Of a stretch of DNA of 34,820 nucleotides, positions 2,151-12,680 are shown piece by piece. This DNA is from Acidimicrobiia bacterium (GTDB taxonomy: Bacteria; Actinomycetota; Acidimicrobiia; Spongiisociales; JAENVV01), in contig JAGXFS010000101.1 in assembly GCA_024637275.1 (NCBI GenBank), forward strand, positions 1-34,820, given 5' to 3'. The notes below the pieces were generated by a model. The model was not told the origin of the DNA. It was given only the letters and a program-made list of their open reading frames with translations, and ran no database searches. The position numbers and the translations under genes were made by a program. Numbering within the stretch: the stretch's first letter is position 1; each line of letters begins with the position of its first letter.

Positions 2151-3098
2151 TCAAACCGAGTGGACTGAATCTCCAGGGCTGATCGTGCCTCCGGTGACCA
2201 CACTGGCGTACCAGCGTGAATGCCCGGGATGTTTTGCGTGAGACAGCCGGGTGAAGTCACCATCGGTGAACCATGGCGCGTTCTGCGAACAAGGTACCGC
2301 CGGCGCCGTCAAGCGACAGACGACATTCCCGATCTGAAGTTCGACACCCGCCCTTAATCCCACCCAGTTGAGTCCATGGACTGTGACGTTTTCGCCGGCG
2401 GATCCGTAGGCGATCGGATGCCCCTGTGCGGCAAACTGATCGATCACTTCGGCGCTGAAGATGCATAAGGCCTGGAAGGGTGCCCCATGGTGCTGCCGGC
2501 TGGCCTGGCGGTCTCCAACGACGCCTGACTTGTCGACTTTGCCAGAGAGAAGGGGGGTTTTCGGTAGGCCGCCACCGGAGCCCGAGACTTGTATGACCTC
2601 GCCTGTGCCAAATTGGGCATTGTCGCCGAGCCGCTTGCGGGCCTGGCCGATGGCAGCCTGCTGGTGCAGTACGGCGTGAGCCAGATGGCGAACAGCCAGG
2701 CCGATGGTCTCGTGGCCAGTGTCGGCGTCGGGAAGGGCCGCATCAAGTTCAGTGGACGTCAGCTTCCGGAGGGCGTTGCTGGCCGTAGCCCCCTCGTGAT
2801 GGAGGGCATCCATAATCGACTCCAAAGAACTGTCCCGGCTCTCGTAATCGTTCGGAGTCACGATCAAGTTCCTCGTGGATCGAAGAACGTCGGTGAGCGA
2901 TTCGACTTGATCGGCAATCGACGGCGAGTCGGCGTCTACGTTGGCGTCGAGGAGCACTGGTTCCATGGATTCACAAGCGAGTTCAATGAGGGCCTTCGCA
3001 TGGCTGATCGTCCGGATGGAGTCCGGTACGTCCCACACTACGATATCGAATCCACATTCCGGGCATTCGTCAACAAATGGATCAAATTGAATCTGCAC
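2151..3098 (-). CDS. DinB-like / MOSC-domain fusion protein
   Basis: The protein has 315 residues. The N-terminal ~155 residues begin with a C-x-x-C-G-F-D motif and continue as a helical DinB/YfiT-like domain with an R-H-L-A-H-A-V-L-H-Q segment near its end. Many actinobacterial DinB-like proteins start with such a C-x-E-C-G-F motif. Residues ~165-315 match a MOSC domain: an early G-x-V-x-x-S-G segment, then G-E-N-V-T, then the conserved cysteine in A-V-P-C-S-Q-N. MOSC domains bind sulfur-carrying molybdenum cofactor or transfer sulfur. The DinB fold is used by thiol-dependent enzymes and metal-binding hydrolases. The fusion suggests a thiol or sulfur-transfer reaction, but no substrate can be named. 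It lies 17 bases downstream of the MFS gene, probably in the same transcript. Confidence 0.82.
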   Translation of the reverse strand: MQIQFDPFVDECPECGFDIVVWDVPDSIRTISHAKALIELACESMEPVLLDANVDADSPSIADQVESLTDVLRSTRNLIVTPNDYESRDSSLESIMDALHHEGATASNALRKLTSTELDAALPDADTGHETIGLAVRHLAHAVLHQQAAIGQARKRLGDNAQFGTGEVIQVSGSGGGLPKTPLLSGKVDKSGVVGDRQASRQHHGAPFQALCIFSAEVIDQFAAQGHPIAYGSAGENVTVHGLNWVGLRAGVELQIGNVVCRLTAPAVPCSQNAPWFTDGDFTRLSHAKHPGHSRWYASVVTGGTISPGDSVHSV

Positions 3099-4397: not shown

Positions 4398-5225
4398 TCA
4401 GGCAGTTTGGAGGGCTGCCCGCAGGGCCGATGTCTTGGCGTCTCGACACCGATCGGGGAGGGTGATCCGGAAGCAGGCGCCACCGAGAATATCCGATTCT
4501 TCATACGATGCTTGCCCGCCATGCGAAGCGGCGATCGCGGCCACGACTGCGAGACCCACTCCCGACCCCGGGATGGCCGTGTTGAACCGGTTGGCACCTC
4601 GTTCAAAACGTTGCCACATGATGTGTCTGTCGCGCTTCGGGACGCCCGGCCCGTTGTCGTGGACCTCCAACACCAGGTCGCCATTGCGATTCTGGGCAAC
4701 GACGGCGATCCTTCCGTCGCCGTATCGGATCGCGTTCTCGACCAGATTGATGAGAACCTGTTGCAGTCTTCCGCGGTCGAAGTTGGCTGCTAGATCGTCG
4801 CTGACCATGATTTCGATTTCAGCCCCATCAGGGTCAATGGTGCGGAGGGTCTCGCCAATCAGGGATGACACCGAAATCGACTCCTCGACGAGGGAGATTT
4901 TGTCGGGCGCGAATCGGGTCAGCAGGATGACGTCGGCGACAATGCGGGACATGCGGGTGGCTTCGCGGTGGGTGATCGCGATGAGCTCAGTGTGCTCCTT
5001 GAGGGTGAGTCCACTTTCGGGGTCGTTCATCAACTCCAGGAAGCCGACGACAGCTGTCAAGGGAGTCCGTAGTTCGTGCGAAATCGACGAAACGAGGTCG
5101 CTGCGCTTTTGGTCAACATGAATGCGGTTGTCGTGAATGGCGAGTCCTTGCCGAAGGGTTACCAGACCACCGACCACCAAGGTTGCCACCGTCAAGAGTC
5201 CGTACGGGCGGATCGAAGCCGGCAT
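4398..5225 (-). CDS. Sensor histidine kinase (catalytic part)
   Basis: The 275-residue product has one hydrophobic segment (about residues 9-22), a HisKA dimerisation domain with the phosphorylatable His at 50 in S-H-E-L-R-T-P-L, and a HATPase domain with N box (L-I-N-L-V-E-N-A-I-R-Y), G1 (D-N-G-P-G-V-P) and G2 (G-S-G-V-G-L-A-V-V). It should autophosphorylate and pass the phosphate to a response regulator, but none is encoded in the window. Its first ~30 codons overlap the 3' end of the upstream membrane-protein frame by 113 bases. The two frames together read like one membrane kinase, so this start may result from a frameshift and not be a native start. Confidence 0.85.
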   Translation of the reverse strand: MPASIRPYGLLTVATLVVGGLVTLRQGLAIHDNRIHVDQKRSDLVSSISHELRTPLTAVVGFLELMNDPESGLTLKEHTELIAITHREATRMSRIVADVILLTRFAPDKISLVEESISVSSLIGETLRTIDPDGAEIEIMVSDDLAANFDRGRLQQVLINLVENAIRYGDGRIAVVAQNRNGDLVLEVHDNGPGVPKRDRHIMWQRFERGANRFNTAIPGSGVGLAVVAAIAASHGGQASYEESDILGGACFRITLPDRCRDAKTSALRAALQTA

Positions 5226-6117
5226 AGGGAAGCGACACGAGGGTTGCAGCTACCAGGCTCAGAGCCACGCCGTATGGGGCAGCCGCCGCGAGACAGTGGA
5301 TGGTGCGTTCTGTGTACTCCCGTGGCTTCGGCGCTGTGTCGGCGAAGTAGGCGCTTGCAGCCAGGCAGCCCGATGCGGCGATGAAGAGGGGGTAGACGGG
5401 CTGAGCCTCGGCGAAGCTGCTCGGAACGCCATTCTTAAGAAATGTCAGGTCGGCCGCCACTTGAAAGGCGGCACCGGTGGCGAGCAGGACCAGGCGAAGA
5501 TCCATCCGATAGAGGGATCGGCGGCTTATCAACGTGACGAACATGATGATGGTGAGGATGTCGAGGGCCGGGTAGGCGGTCCCTAGCCAGCGAGCCCATG
5601 AGTTCGCGCCGCTGAAGTAATCCACGAGGTCACCCACTATCAGGATCCAGCCGAGAGCACTCACCGAGATTGCTCCGACTATCCCGTCGATAATGGTTCC
5701 AGCCAGGTCTCTTCGTCCAGCAAAAGCATTCGGCAGAGAAGCGGCTCCGGCCAGAACTCCCAGGTATCCCCCGATGAACAAGATATCGATCGGGCCGAAT
5801 GCAGGTGGGTGGACACCGAACGCTTCGAGAAGGAAAAGCAGGCTAACTCCAGCCCCTGCCGACGTGAGGCCGCCACCGATCAGGGTCCACACCAGGCGTT
5901 CGCGGCCATCTTTCGATTTGGCGTGGCGAAGTGCCACTCGACCACCGGTTACGTATCCGATGAGGAGGCCGAAAGCACCGGTTATGTCGGCGACTTCGGG
6001 GAATATGACTGTCGAGGCCGCCAGAGTCGCGAGTGCAACCACGAACGCGATCGGTTTCCACTTCAGCATCAGCTGATCTGTGGTCACCTGACCAAGCCTG
6101 AGTGCGGTGATCTGCAT
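5113..6117 (-). CDS. Multi-pass membrane sensor region, probably the N-terminal half of the adjacent kinase
   Basis: This frame encodes 334 residues with about seven to eight hydrophobic helices up to residue ~300 (ending near S-L-V-A-A-T-L-V-S-L-P). The last ~35 residues are polar and low in hydrophobic content (S-A-R-T-R-H-S-R-Q-P), unlike the rest. The overlapping +1 frame encodes a hydrophobic helix that leads straight into the kinase dimerisation domain. The likely ancestral product is a ~575-residue membrane histidine kinase with a 7-8 helix input domain. Its upstream region shares a 16-base motif with the promoter region of the neighbouring alpha-oxoamine synthase. Confidence 0.72.
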   Translation of the reverse strand: MQITALRLGQVTTDQLMLKWKPIAFVVALATLAASTVIFPEVADITGAFGLLIGYVTGGRVALRHAKSKDGRERLVWTLIGGGLTSAGAGVSLLFLLEAFGVHPPAFGPIDILFIGGYLGVLAGAASLPNAFAGRRDLAGTIIDGIVGAISVSALGWILIVGDLVDYFSGANSWARWLGTAYPALDILTIIMFVTLISRRSLYRMDLRLVLLATGAAFQVAADLTFLKNGVPSSFAEAQPVYPLFIAASGCLAASAYFADTAPKPREYTERTIHCLAAAAPYGVALSLVAATLVSLPYAGFDPPVRTLDGGNLGGRWSGNPSARTRHSRQPHSC

Positions 6118-6158
6118 TAGTCAAATATCGGCCCTGTTTAGGGGCTACTTGACTGAAA

Positions 6159-6174
6159 TGTCTTGCTTTGTCCT
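6159..6174 (-). promoter_or_regulatory. Shared motif AGGACAAA-N4-GACA, copy 1
   Basis: On the minus strand this reads AGGACAAAGCAAGACA, 42-57 bases upstream of the membrane-sensor ATG at 6117. It matches 12 of 16 positions with the copy at 7473-7488 upstream of the oxoamine synthase. GACA steps repeat at about 10-base spacing, as expected for a protein that contacts one face of DNA. The binding protein is unknown. Confidence 0.4.
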
Positions 6175-6183
6175 GTTTTGCGA

Positions 6184-7452
6184 TCAGATCGCGGAACGCC
6201 GCCCGAAAACCGGCTGATGCAGTTCCTCGGTGAGGTCGATGACCTCGGGAGGATTGGTGTATTCGGCCAGGGTGTAGATCAGTGCCTCGATTTCAGCTGC
6301 GGAGTGTGCGGCGGTGACGGTGAACCGGACGCCTCCTTCGCGGATCGGAACGGCCGGGTAGCCGGCCGCATTGACGAAAAACCCATTGGCCATCATGATT
6401 TTCGTCATCCGGATCGCATCGTCGGAGGTGCCTACCCGGACGAATGTGATCGGGGTACGGGCCAGCGATGGGACGGACAACCCGCACTCATCGACGAGTT
6501 TGTTCACCAGGTCGATGCGTTCGTACAACACCTCCTGTCGCTCGGCATGTTCACGACTCAGGTGGATGTCGCCGGATCGAACGCCCGCACCGAGTACTGC
6601 CGGGTGGATTGGCCCGCCGAAGGTCAAAGTCCCACCGGTCAGGAGGATTCTTTGCGCCATTACCGGGTCACCGATGGCCAGAGCGGCGCCCCCCGCTCCG
6701 AAGGACTTCGACAGAGACACGGCCACAACCTTGCGCGGGTTGAGTTGGGTGTTCTCGAGCACGTAGCCAACTCCGTGCCGTCCCGCCCATCCGAATCCGT
6801 GGGCGTCGTCGTAGTAGACGTACAGGTTCCCGAATTCCTCCATCAATAGGTCGATCTCGGCGACGGGTGCGACGTCACCAAACATGGAATAGACCCCATC
6901 GGCCAGGTACCAAACCTTTTCATAGGTATCGGCCGCCGATGAAAGGACGGAGCGGAGCGCGTTCATATCGTTGTGTCGAACGACCTTTACCGTCATCCCG
7001 CGTCCCCGCAACACGTCGACCGCCATGTGCATGGAGGCGTGAGACTGTATGTCAATTACTACGAGGTCGCTGCGCGAAACCAGCACCGGGAGGGCGGCCA
7101 GGTGGGCAAGGGTGGTGGTGGGCGCTGGAATTACGGAGTGCCCACCGAAGATCTGGGTGAGCCGCTCTTCAAGGTCGGTGTAGAGGTCTACCGATGCGTA
7201 GGCGACCGACGACGAATAACTAGGCCCGAAGCGTTCGACCGCCGACGCCGCGGCTTGCTTGAGGCGCGAGTCCTGGCCCAGTCCGAGGTAGGAACAAGAT
7301 CCGAAGTTGATGAGGTCCCGGCCGTTGACCCGGATATTGGTGCCGGTCAGTTGGTCGTCGGTGATGCGAACCCTGATGACACCCGCGTCAACAGCTTCCT
7401 GCATTGATGACTGAACCATCTCTAATAGACGCGCTTCTCGCTCGCCACCCAT
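6184..7452 (-). CDS. Alpha-oxoamine synthase family PLP enzyme (BioF/KBL/SPT/CqsA-like)
   Basis: The protein has 422 residues, the usual length for alpha-oxoamine synthases, which join an acyl-CoA to an amino acid with loss of CO2. Expected residues are visible: N-F-G-S-C-S-Y-L-G-L near 50, the PLP-stacking His in S-H-A-S (138), R-H-N-D at 159-162, D215 and H218 in Y-D-D-A-H-G, and the Schiff-base Lys249 in S-L-S-K-S-F-G. No biotin gene (bioA, B, D) or threonine dehydrogenase is nearby, so BioF or KBL is not supported by context. It is next to a membrane histidine kinase, which resembles the cqsA-cqsS and lqsA-lqsS arrangement, where the synthase makes an alpha-hydroxyketone signal. That role is inference. 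An AGGG-rich ribosome site precedes the ATG. Confidence 0.87.
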   Translation of the reverse strand: MGGEREARLLEMVQSSMQEAVDAGVIRVRITDDQLTGTNIRVNGRDLINFGSCSYLGLGQDSRLKQAAASAVERFGPSYSSSVAYASVDLYTDLEERLTQIFGGHSVIPAPTTTLAHLAALPVLVSRSDLVVIDIQSHASMHMAVDVLRGRGMTVKVVRHNDMNALRSVLSSAADTYEKVWYLADGVYSMFGDVAPVAEIDLLMEEFGNLYVYYDDAHGFGWAGRHGVGYVLENTQLNPRKVVAVSLSKSFGAGGAALAIGDPVMAQRILLTGGTLTFGGPIHPAVLGAGVRSGDIHLSREHAERQEVLYERIDLVNKLVDECGLSVPSLARTPITFVRVGTSDDAIRMTKIMMANGFFVNAAGYPAVPIREGGVRFTVTAAHSAAEIEALIYTLAEYTNPPEVIDLTEELHQPVFGRRSAI

Positions 7453-7472
7453 TGAACGACCTACCCTCTATC

Positions 7473-7497
7473 TGTCGCATTTTGTCCTACTTTGTCC
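7473..7497 (-). promoter_or_regulatory. Shared motif AGGACAAA-N4-GACA, copy 2, with an extra GGACAAA
   Basis: On the minus strand GGACAAAGTA is followed directly by GGACAAAATG and then CGACA, giving three GACA steps at a 10-base period, 21-45 bases upstream of the oxoamine synthase ATG. The inner 16 bases (7473-7488) match the copy at 6159-6174 at 12 positions. It is a candidate operator for coordinate control of synthase and kinase. Confidence 0.4.
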
Positions 7498-9734: not shown

Positions 9735-11201
9735 TTAGTTCAGACGGTCGATGACCCGGGCGAGCATGGCCAGTCCTGGTTCGATGGCCGGGAGCGGCGT
9801 CGACGCATATCCCAGCTTGAAGTGATTGCGCGGGATGGGTTGGGTAACGAAGCACGGTTCGCCTGCCTCGACAACCACACCCTGGTCGATCGCTAGCTCG
9901 GCCATGGTGGTGGCATCAAAGTCAGGTGGTCCGGTCACCCAGATGGAGAGCCCTCCTGTCGGGATGGGAACGGGCCAGGGGATGTGTGTTTCGACAGCTG
10001 CCGACATCGCCGCCCATTTCTCCTTGTAGATCTTACGAATCCGACGGACGGATCGGTTGTAGTCCCCGCTTTCGATGAACAGGGCTAGAGCCCTTTGGAG
10101 CAACCCTGGGGGATGGCGAAGTTGGTAACGGCGCAGATCGCGCAAATGTTCGATGAGTGGAGGCTCGGCGACCACAAATCCGAGTCGCAGTCCTGGAGCC
10201 AGGAACTTCGAGAAGCTGCCGAGGTAGATGACCCGGCCGGAGTTCTCAATGCTCTTCATCGCTGGAGTAGATTGCCCGAGGTAGCGAAACTCGGAGTCGT
10301 AGTCATCCTCGATGATGACGAAATCGTCGCGGGATGCCTGGGACAGGAGAGCTTGCCGGCGGCCAATCGACAGGGTGGCGTTGGTTGGGTACTGATGCGA
10401 TGGCGTCACGAAAACCATGTCCACATCAGACAGATCTGACGGGATCACGGCCCCTTGATCGTCAACCGGCAACGCCCTGATGGCCGCTCCCCGGGAGCGG
10501 ACCATGTGCCGGGCATCCGGGTATCCGGGTTCTTCAATCGCCACCATCGACCCGGAGCCCAGGAGCGCGGCCGCGACGAGACCCAGTCCGTGCTGTGAGC
10601 CGAGGGTTATCAAGATTTCCTCAGGCTTGGCCGTGATACCGCGGCCGCGCAGAACGTGGCGTCGGAGCATCTCTATGAGCAACGGGTCGTCGCGGTCGAC
10701 GAGGTCATGCAGGCTGGCGCCAGCATGCTCGGGGATCAGGGCTGACCGCATTGCCCGGCCCCATGATTTGGATGGGAACATGTCCGTCTCTACCTGACCG
10801 GCGATGAAGGGATACGGGTAAGTCGACCAGTTGGCCGGCTTCCAAATGTGGCCGAAGTCGCTCGTATCGGTGGCAAGTCGTCTCTCCCAGCCCAATGACT
10901 CGCTACGCGGACGGGGCTGGTCATTGAGGTGCGCCTGAAAGTCGGGGTTGACCGTGTGGCCGACCCTCGGTATCGAGGTGATGTAGCCGTCCGAGAGCAG
11001 CATTTGCAGGGCCAGATTCACCGTGTTCCGTGAAAGGCCCAGGTCGTTCGCAAGGGTCCGGGACGAGGGGAGGAGTTCGGCGGTGTTGAAGTGTCCTTGT
11101 TCAATGGCTCCGACAAGCGCTTTGGACAGCTGTTTGTACAGCGGCTCGGTTGAACCAGGATCGAGCGCGATGAGCACTTGACTGACCGGCTTCTTTGTCA
11201 T
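9735..11201 (-). CDS. MocR/GabR/PdxR-type transcription regulator (GntR HTH + aminotransferase fold)
   Basis: This 488-residue protein has an N-terminal winged helix (P-S-S-R-T-L-A-N-D-L-G-L-S-R-N-T-V) at about 45-75 and a class-I aminotransferase domain over the remainder, with the PLP Lys in L-G-S-F-S-K-F-L. MocR-family proteins bind PLP or an amino-compound adduct and control nearby aminotransferase, pyridoxal or transporter genes. It is divergent from the class-III aminotransferase at 11346, its most likely target, over a 144-base intergenic region. The ATG at 11201 is preferred because a GGCGAG element precedes it; a GTG at 11234 is an alternative. Confidence 0.92.
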   Translation of the reverse strand: MTKKPVSQVLIALDPGSTEPLYKQLSKALVGAIEQGHFNTAELLPSSRTLANDLGLSRNTVNLALQMLLSDGYITSIPRVGHTVNPDFQAHLNDQPRPRSESLGWERRLATDTSDFGHIWKPANWSTYPYPFIAGQVETDMFPSKSWGRAMRSALIPEHAGASLHDLVDRDDPLLIEMLRRHVLRGRGITAKPEEILITLGSQHGLGLVAAALLGSGSMVAIEEPGYPDARHMVRSRGAAIRALPVDDQGAVIPSDLSDVDMVFVTPSHQYPTNATLSIGRRQALLSQASRDDFVIIEDDYDSEFRYLGQSTPAMKSIENSGRVIYLGSFSKFLAPGLRLGFVVAEPPLIEHLRDLRRYQLRHPPGLLQRALALFIESGDYNRSVRRIRKIYKEKWAAMSAAVETHIPWPVPIPTGGLSIWVTGPPDFDATTMAELAIDQGVVVEAGEPCFVTQPIPRNHFKLGYASTPLPAIEPGLAMLARVIDRLN

Positions 11202-11259
11202 CGTCCACTCGCCTTTTACGGGACGCCGGATCACCTTCAGAGCGGCAACGGCTTGCGCG

Positions 11260-11279
11260 TGGTACCGCTACTTGGTGCC
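11260..11279. promoter_or_regulatory. Direct repeat TGGTACC / TGGTGCC, candidate MocR-type operator
   Basis: Two heptamers that differ at one base occur in direct orientation 13 bases apart in the region shared by the divergent regulator and aminotransferase. MocR/GabR proteins often bind direct repeats in such regions. The assignment rests on position and repeat structure only. Confidence 0.35.
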
Positions 11280-11345
11280 TTTCTGGCACTTTACCTGGGT
11301 CCAACGGCGCAGTATCGTCGGAGCGGCTATTTCCAAAGGAGAACC

Positions 11346-12680
11346 ATGAGTGTCAACAAGGCGGATCTTCGCCATATGCTCCTGCACTTCACGAGCGGCA
11401 AGGCATGGCGAGACGGGAACGTTCCCATGTATGTGCGCGGTGAGGGCGTCTATCTCTGGGACGACGACGGCAACAAGATCTTCGACGGGTTGGCCGGCCT
11501 GTTCGTTGTTCAGCTCGGCCACGGTCGGTCTGACCTGGCAAATGCCGCCGCCAAACAGATGGAATTGTTGGCCTACACCCCCACCTGGGCAGCCGCCCAT
11601 CCGTCGGCCATTGAATGCGCCAAGCTCATCAGCGAGGTCGCGCCGTCAGGGATGGACTCGGTGTTCTTCGTAAGTTCGGGTTCCGAAGCCGTCGAGTCAG
11701 TTATCAAGTTCGCCCGTCAGTACCACTACATGCGCGGCAATCCGACCAAGACCGGCATCATCAGTCGTAACTTTTCGTACCACGGTACGACCATGGGAGC
11801 TCTGTCGCTCACCGGGCTCGAAGGTATCCGGGCGCCTTTCTATCCGTTGCTGCCGAACACCCACAAAGTCGCGAATACGTTGGAAGCCGGGATGGGCGGC
11901 GCGGCCGCATTTGAAGAAACCATCCTGCGGGTCGGGCCGGAGAACATCGGTTTGATTACGGCTGAACCCGTTCAAAATGGCGGCGGTGCTCTGGTACCTC
12001 CCGACGGCTATTGGCAGGAGCTGCGGAGGATCTGCGATAAGTACGACATCCTTCTCCATGCTGACGAAGTGATTACCGGGTTTGGCCGGCTAGGCGACTG
12101 GTTTGGGTCCCCCCTCGTTGGTGCCGACCCCGACTTCATTACCTTCGCCAAAGGTGCGACCTCTGGATATGCGCCCATTGGCGGAGTGATTATTCGTGAC
12201 GAGGTTGTCAACGATCTGCTCGTCGAGCACGACTCGGGCTTCACGCATGGGGCGACCTGGGGCGGTCATCCCATGGTTATGGCCACGGCTATCGCCAACA
12301 TCACCGCCATGCGGTCCGAGCACGTCGTTGAGAACGTGACCGCCAACCAGGATTACTTTGGGGCAAAGCTGGCCGAACTCGAAAATGCCCATGACGTCGT
12401 CACCGACATTCGGGGGATGGGCTACTTCTATGCGGTTGAGCTGGGTCGTAGCCGGGAGGCCGGCCAATACCTCACCGAGGAAGAGACCGCCCTCTACGTG
12501 AAGGAGCGTCTCCCAAGGTTCATTCAGGATGCCAATCTGCTGATCCGGGCCGACGACCGGGGCAATGCCAAGTTGATGCTCTCGCCTCCTCTTATTTGTG
12601 AGGCAAGCGACCTTGACGAACTCATGGCCGGCGTCGATCAGGTGGTCTCCCGATTTGCCGAGGATCTCACAACGTATTAA
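11346..12680 (+). CDS. Class-III omega-aminotransferase
   Basis: The 444-residue protein has the class-III aminotransferase set: F-F-V-S-S-G-S-E-A-V-E at 107-117, S-Y-H-G-T-T at 144-149, the PLP-ring Asp in H-A-D-E-V-I-T-G-F-G-R near 240, and the Schiff-base Lys269 in F-A-K-G-A-T-S-G-Y. The subfamily includes beta-alanine, putrescine, GABA and taurine:pyruvate aminotransferases, and the substrate is not decidable here. The divergent GabR-like regulator suggests an inducible amino-compound pathway. Alanine dehydrogenase next to it could recycle the alanine formed when pyruvate is the amino acceptor; this link is inferred. An AAAGGAGAA ribosome site lies 5 bases before the ATG at 11346. Confidence 0.92.
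   Translation: MSVNKADLRHMLLHFTSGKAWRDGNVPMYVRGEGVYLWDDDGNKIFDGLAGLFVVQLGHGRSDLANAAAKQMELLAYTPTWAAAHPSAIECAKLISEVAPSGMDSVFFVSSGSEAVESVIKFARQYHYMRGNPTKTGIISRNFSYHGTTMGALSLTGLEGIRAPFYPLLPNTHKVANTLEAGMGGAAAFEETILRVGPENIGLITAEPVQNGGGALVPPDGYWQELRRICDKYDILLHADEVITGFGRLGDWFGSPLVGADPDFITFAKGATSGYAPIGGVIIRDEVVNDLLVEHDSGFTHGATWGGHPMVMATAIANITAMRSEHVVENVTANQDYFGAKLAELENAHDVVTDIRGMGYFYAVELGRSREAGQYLTEEETALYVKERLPRFIQDANLLIRADDRGNAKLMLSPPLICEASDLDELMAGVDQVVSRFAEDLTTY

Follow-up and report, generated by a model that had tools for sequence, protein, structure and literature searches.

A conserved gene pair encoding an oxoamine-synthase-type enzyme and a membrane histidine kinase in Acidimicrobiia, a candidate chemical signalling system

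Two adjoining genes on the minus strand of contig JAGXFS010000101.1, from an Acidimicrobiia bacterium (assembly GCA_024637275.1), encode an alpha-oxoamine synthase and a membrane histidine kinase; "the window" refers throughout to the whole stretch of 34,820 nucleotides that was analysed. The synthase gene (6184..7452) specifies a protein of 422 amino acids that is recognised by the Pfam model Aminotran_1_2 at 85.9 bits and that is placed in a distinct, PRK07505-like clade by its NCBIfam scores, its position in a tree and its conserved residues. The kinase reading frame starts 66 bases downstream of the synthase, on the same strand. In the window it consists of two overlapping open reading frames (ORFs) in different frames, spanning about 6117-4398: the first (5113..6117) encodes the membrane sensor part, as delimited by the ORF, hydropathy and an AlphaFold model, and the second (4398..5225) the HisKA and HATPase_c part, identified with Pfam. 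Comparison with the nearest relative locates a single-base frameshift between them near 5.2 kb, and because relatives with long enough contigs carry the kinase as a single intact ORF of about 560-590 amino acids, the frameshift is either an assembly or sequencing error or a recent lesion. A predicted sigma-28/WhiG-type promoter for the kinase gene (6125..6152) has a GACAAA-N4-GACA direct repeat directly on its 5' side (6159..6172), and three GACA(AA) direct repeats with a 10-base period (7473..7496) lie between a possible -10 element, TACGCT, and the synthase start; all of these, too, are on the minus strand. An earlier note on this DNA, made from the sequence alone, had recognised an oxoamine synthase gene beside a membrane histidine kinase gene on one strand, which the ORFs and Pfam matches bear out, the kinase being split by its frameshift. 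Its remark that biotin and threonine-catabolism genes are missing nearby also stands, as none was recognised among nine scanned ORFs between 37 and 12680 (the ORFs at 1473-2141 and 2151-3098 lay outside the scan).

Judged from its sequence, the synthase is an oxoamine-synthase-type enzyme outside the characterised branches with which it was compared, a placement that rests on model scores, a tree, the absence of bioB and the presence of a separate KBL in the genome. The best-scoring curated model is PRK07505 (NF005697), at 273.7 bits under a cut-off of 342, and further clade members scanned against that model score 263-294 bits, likewise under the cut-off. The protein also falls under the cut-offs for BioF (TIGR00858; 197.5 bits, cut-off 426.45), SPT (NF047599 and NF047600; 166.1 and 168.5 bits, cut-offs 500 and 640), KBL (NF005394 and TIGR01822; 148.2 and 118.8 bits, cut-offs 460 and 493) and CqsA/LqsA (NF005526; 79.2 bits, cut-off 428). 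With a profile built from 18 synthase orthologues, the wider clade reaches at least 459 bits; none of the BioF, KBL, SPT and CqsA/LqsA proteins compared exceeds 200, the CqsA/LqsA proteins scoring 69-88 bits. In a quick IQ-TREE analysis of 85 chosen rows, in which branches carry SH-aLRT support only, the synthase clade and the CqsA/LqsA clade (six model-passing proteins) each have a support of 100, KBL has 99 and the SPT sets 99-100; L196, on a long branch, attaches at the base of the synthase clade. The gene bioB was found in 0 of the 59 genomes of a related-genome sample that includes the window's own (a positive control found it in 7 of 14 named genomes), so that a biotin role for the synthase is unlikely, and the other family member in the genome is a true KBL, encoded elsewhere (L002; 658 bits, cut-off 460). 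An identity as BioF, KBL or SPT was thus rejected on scores, tree and missing bioB, and membership of CqsA/LqsA on model score, profile and tree. The residues that we take to be catalytic are kept: the pyridoxal phosphate (PLP) lysine K249, the DDAH motif (D215/D216-A-H218), H138 and R376. Four clade members compared have a TTT-x-x-H stretch, at which eight other proteins have [ST]-[GC]-[YFW]-x-[AV]-N.

Synthase and kinase form a portable two-gene unit. In the related-genome sample, a synthase orthologue (E <= 1e-58) is present in 19 of the 59 genomes. In 17 of these the next gene downstream, in the same orientation, is a sensor orthologue; the two exceptions are G035 and G053. In a class sample of 395 genomes (synthase E <= 1e-55, sensor E <= 1e-20) the synthase is found in 39, the sensor in 44 and both in 37, which is to say that the sensor accompanies the synthase in 37 of 39 genomes vs 7 of 356 others (Fisher p 1.8e-42, uncorrected for kinship); at the level of genera, 22 of 23 with a synthase also have the sensor (p 2e-23). 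By their listed coordinates the two genes are adjacent in 34 of the 39 synthase genomes of the class sample. A separate scan of contigs found a sensor kinase at 27 of 29 Acidimicrobiia-type loci, L114 and L116 having none; the three samples overlap. Distances among synthases and among sensors correlate with r=0.82 over 25 pairs, a value reached in 0 of 2000 permutations, which shared ancestry alone could also explain. Outside the genus the genes flanking the pair differ from family to family, so that the unit that is kept is the two-gene pair and not a larger operon. Alanine dehydrogenase was considered as a further member and set aside, since its promoter-like match is not conserved in the genus and the gene is present at that place only in the genus. 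Two metagenome-assembled genomes (MAGs) titled Acidobacteria (L107) and Armatimonadetes (L103) carry an Acidimicrobiia-type pair, through either mislabelled bins or transfer. Elsewhere in the window, at 9735-12680, a MocR-like PdxR regulator (365 bits, cut-off 320) is divergent to an adjoining class-III aminotransferase.

The second kinase ORF matches HisKA at 57.2 bits and HATPase_c at 81.6 bits, and the kinase motifs are intact in relatives; the Pfam scan found no receiver domain in the kinase and no match for the sensor part. Hydropathy analysis of the sensor gives 9-10 peaks in each of 17 relatives. An AlphaFold model of the window's sensor (pLDDT 83.5) contains nine helices of at least 16 residues within 296 residues. 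Residues 37-266 of the model match seven-helix bundles, and in a comparison with rhodopsin-type folds the best VIA Z was 10.9 (root-mean-square deviation 3.9, 187 aligned), with many rows near 10; the values lie below about 13, a range common for unrelated helical bundles, and the best Foldseek match has an E of 0.2.

In most families the kinase start is preceded by C-T-[TA]-N-A, 15-16 bases and GCCGA[TC]A. The window's version is TCAAG-N15-GCCGATAT, with TCAAG at 6152-6148 and GCCGATAT at 6132-6125; the start codon follows 7 bases past the latter, so that the transcript is possibly leaderless. The pattern resembles the flagellar/WhiG consensus, which the available text of PMC8325347 gives as -35 TAAA and -10 GCCGATAA. 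Leave-one-out scores of at least 10 bits were obtained at 32 of 34 kinase loci vs 9 of 323 control gene starts (near-duplicates remain in the training set), and two of the nine high-scoring controls are the paired kinase genes themselves, taken with an alternative start. A FliA/WhiG sigma factor scores above its model cut-off in 50 of the 59 genomes, the window's own included. The pattern CTTYA-N16-GCCGAYA occurs at 18 sites in 9 genomes vs 8 for a reversed control; single promoter sites are therefore weak, and the claim rests on conservation across families. A scan for a sigma-70 promoter or a terminator of the pair did no better than chance. Among other genes, a WhiG-type promoter precedes one and the same cysteine-rich protein of 98-99 amino acids in four of the nine genomes searched (L220:1567-1860, L221:1565-1858, L222:1560-1856 and L232:1560-1856), the L220 copy having no Pfam match. 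Matches also lie 5' of a GGDEF-EAL protein (L234:1559-2995), a GAF-HisKA kinase (L235:1566-3026) and a sigma-70 factor (L228:536-1474); these three fall inside open frames.

The earlier note had also seen a motif shared by the two upstream regions, and this is confirmed: the window contains exactly three copies of GACAAA-N4-GACA (6159-6172, 7473-7486 and 7483-7496, all minus strand) vs 0.05 expected, each copy upstream of the synthase or the kinase gene. The repeats are conserved within the genus only and are placed differently, just upstream of the -35 element at the kinase but near the start codon at the synthase. It is possible that a common regulator acts at the repeats of both genes.

Beyond Acidimicrobiia, the wider synthase clade is found in Bacteroidota, some Proteobacteria, Solirubrobacter, Myxococcota and one cyanobacterium. 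Most of the synthases there carry a fused C-terminal domain of 400-430 amino acids with a GNAT fold (model pLDDT 88.9), for which the best Foldseek match is FemX (E 8e-11, probability 1.00) and the closest folds also include lysyl-phosphatidylglycerol synthases and N-myristoyltransferases. These loci often adjoin DUF7793 together with a PAS-HisKA_3 kinase and a NarL-type regulator, or a HisKA hybrid kinase. Among 51 loci outside the Acidimicrobiia-type group, chosen by synthase score alone, 27 have a histidine kinase within 1 kb of the synthase, of types that differ from the Acidimicrobiia one. Kinases make up 30 of 95 ORFs of at least 150 amino acids near the synthase vs 6 of 168 far from it (>= 2 kb), a comparison that uses one profile trained on neighbours and may favour near matches. 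A search of the 59 Acidimicrobiia-side genomes for relatives of the GNAT domain found none (the positive control recovered the domain in 5 of 8 genomes, each of the five being represented in the query), and the idea of a split GNAT partner for the Acidimicrobiia synthase was dropped. One Pseudomonadales MAG has tandem fused synthases (L113:1833-4325 and L113:5899-8439). DUF7793 proteins, in one or two copies, are frequent beside the fused synthase (L118:5428-5808, L119:8439-9264), and a literature search found no paper on them.

The inheritance of the pair together across this little-studied class suggests an undescribed chemical signalling system. We consider it slightly better than an even chance (roughly 0.52), on what the sequences suggest, that the pair comprises a signal synthase and its receptor, with an acyl-aminoketone signal and WhiG-gated reception. 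From family chemistry and the catalytic residues, the PLP enzyme would use an acyl thioester and an amino acid as substrates of a condensation that yields a lipophilic alpha-aminoketone, and this compound or a derivative would leave the cell. The adjoining HisKA kinase would sense it through the 9-10-helix membrane domain and hand its phosphate on to the putative partner, a response regulator not linked to the pair. The kinase gene would be switched on from its sigma-28/WhiG-type promoter and the synthase from a promoter of its own, and with a promoter of that type reception is probably tied to the lifestyle switch governed by RsiG-WhiG under cyclic di-GMP (c-di-GMP) control. A search of open-licence papers found no description of an oxoamine-synthase signal system in Acidimicrobiia, in agreement with the earlier note, which knew of no such pair in the group; the class is represented here almost solely by MAGs. 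If the proposal is right, a small-molecule signal and its receptor are contained in a single two-gene unit, which a laboratory host could express for testing.

Several observations weigh against a signal synthase with its own receptor. The kinase gene is frameshifted in the window, and the genus has the weakest kinase-promoter scores (6.6-10.5 bits). No response regulator adjoins the kinase at the loci checked, the sole near-exception being L092, with a weak regulator-like match 1.9 kb away from its synthase. In five synthase genomes of the class sample the sensor was not found next to the synthase: in G035 and G053, of one genus, the kinase is on a different contig; in G561 and G604 no sensor match reaches E <= 1e-20; and in G624 the sensor match is on another contig, with the synthase close to a contig end. 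Going by contig coordinates, G561 is seemingly the same as L101, where a diverged sensor kinase adjoins the synthase. Seven of the 395 genomes (G009, G029, G056, G452, G490, G525 and G554) have the sensor without the synthase; they are possible listeners, or the synthase is lost or missing. In the wider clade, all six Methylobacter/Methylococcaceae loci and both Solirubrobacter loci lack a near kinase.

The same genes could serve the cell envelope. The synthase would then make a membrane or envelope lipid, sphingoid-like or with an aminolipid headgroup, and the kinase would monitor lipid or membrane state in envelope homeostasis and not in cell-cell signalling. The SPT models are among those with the higher scores (166-169 bits), the best sequence matches in PDB are SPTs, and the GNAT fusion of other phyla, with its FemX, lysyl-phosphatidylglycerol synthase and N-myristoyltransferase folds, would fit an N-acylated lipid. 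However, the synthase lies far under both SPT cut-offs in a separate clade, no lipid-pathway gene is kept beside the pair outside the genus, and nothing related to the GNAT domain was found in the 59 genomes, all of which leaves this explanation improbable, though to be taken seriously. We give somewhat less credence still to a kinase that responds to another input, for instance redox state or amino acids, and that controls a synthase making a secondary metabolite. Kinases commonly adjoin biosynthetic genes, and the GACAAA repeats 5' of both genes suggest co-regulation, but only synthase and kinase are common across families, with no further gene, and the repeats have their restricted range and unequal placement. 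A housekeeping role for the synthase as BioF or KBL, with the kinase beside it by chance, is highly improbable and already contradicted: the fold-family is the same and PRK07505 is itself annotated just as "hypothetical protein", but bioB is missing from the sampled genomes, the true KBL is encoded elsewhere and the neighbour is kept in 34 of 39 genomes.

A signal synthase paired with its receptor in Acidimicrobiia would draw attention to a synthase clade that is much larger, unassigned and, in Bacteroidota, tied to two-component kinases. More tentatively, and as a broader proposal that we regard as possible but doubtful, the clade may constitute a cross-phylum signalling family apart from alpha-hydroxyketone quorum sensing. 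Its signals would be acyl-aminoketones, which the GNAT-fused form of Bacteroidota would N-acylate, and its distinct synthase would have been wired repeatedly to different two-component kinases. Its Acidimicrobiia receptor would be a new 9-10-helix kinase under sigma-WhiG, joining cell-cell signalling to the c-di-GMP switch.

Among known enzymes, the synthase shares with SPT, KBL and BioF the PLP fold, the catalytic lysine, the histidines and the position of the carboxylate-binding arginine, and is set apart from them by its separate clade and, in the members compared, the TTT-x-x-H stretch; PRK07505, "hypothetical protein" in NCBIfam, is the nearest named model, yet the synthase stays below its cut-off. 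In Rubrobacter, the proposed targets of a WhiG sigma factor held by the c-di-GMP-dependent anti-sigma factor RsiG are type IV pili and c-di-GMP enzymes, and the RsiG-WhiG targets named in the available part of that paper (PMC8325347) include no such synthase or receptor. The earlier note had likened the pair to CqsA/CqsS of Vibrio and LqsA/LqsS of Legionella, had looked to the conservation of the pair in relatives, which was found, and had left room for a synthase that groups with BioF, KBL or SPT, which it does not. What survives is the functional analogy: in all of these an oxoamine-synthase-family gene is the neighbour of one for a polytopic membrane histidine kinase, both are inherited as a cassette, and HisKA and HATPase_c follow the sensor. 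Family membership does not survive, as the synthase, at 79 bits on the CqsA/LqsA model, and the CqsA/LqsA proteins occupy separate, fully supported clades, and as the sensor has 9-10 predicted helices, compared with the six membrane helices of the CqsS/LqsS sensor domain stated in the available text of PMC3376566. The present pair also differs in lacking a receiver domain and an adjoining regulator, and in its phylum. As both synthase and kinase lack defining features of the known systems, the pair would work like Cqs and Lqs but belongs to neither.

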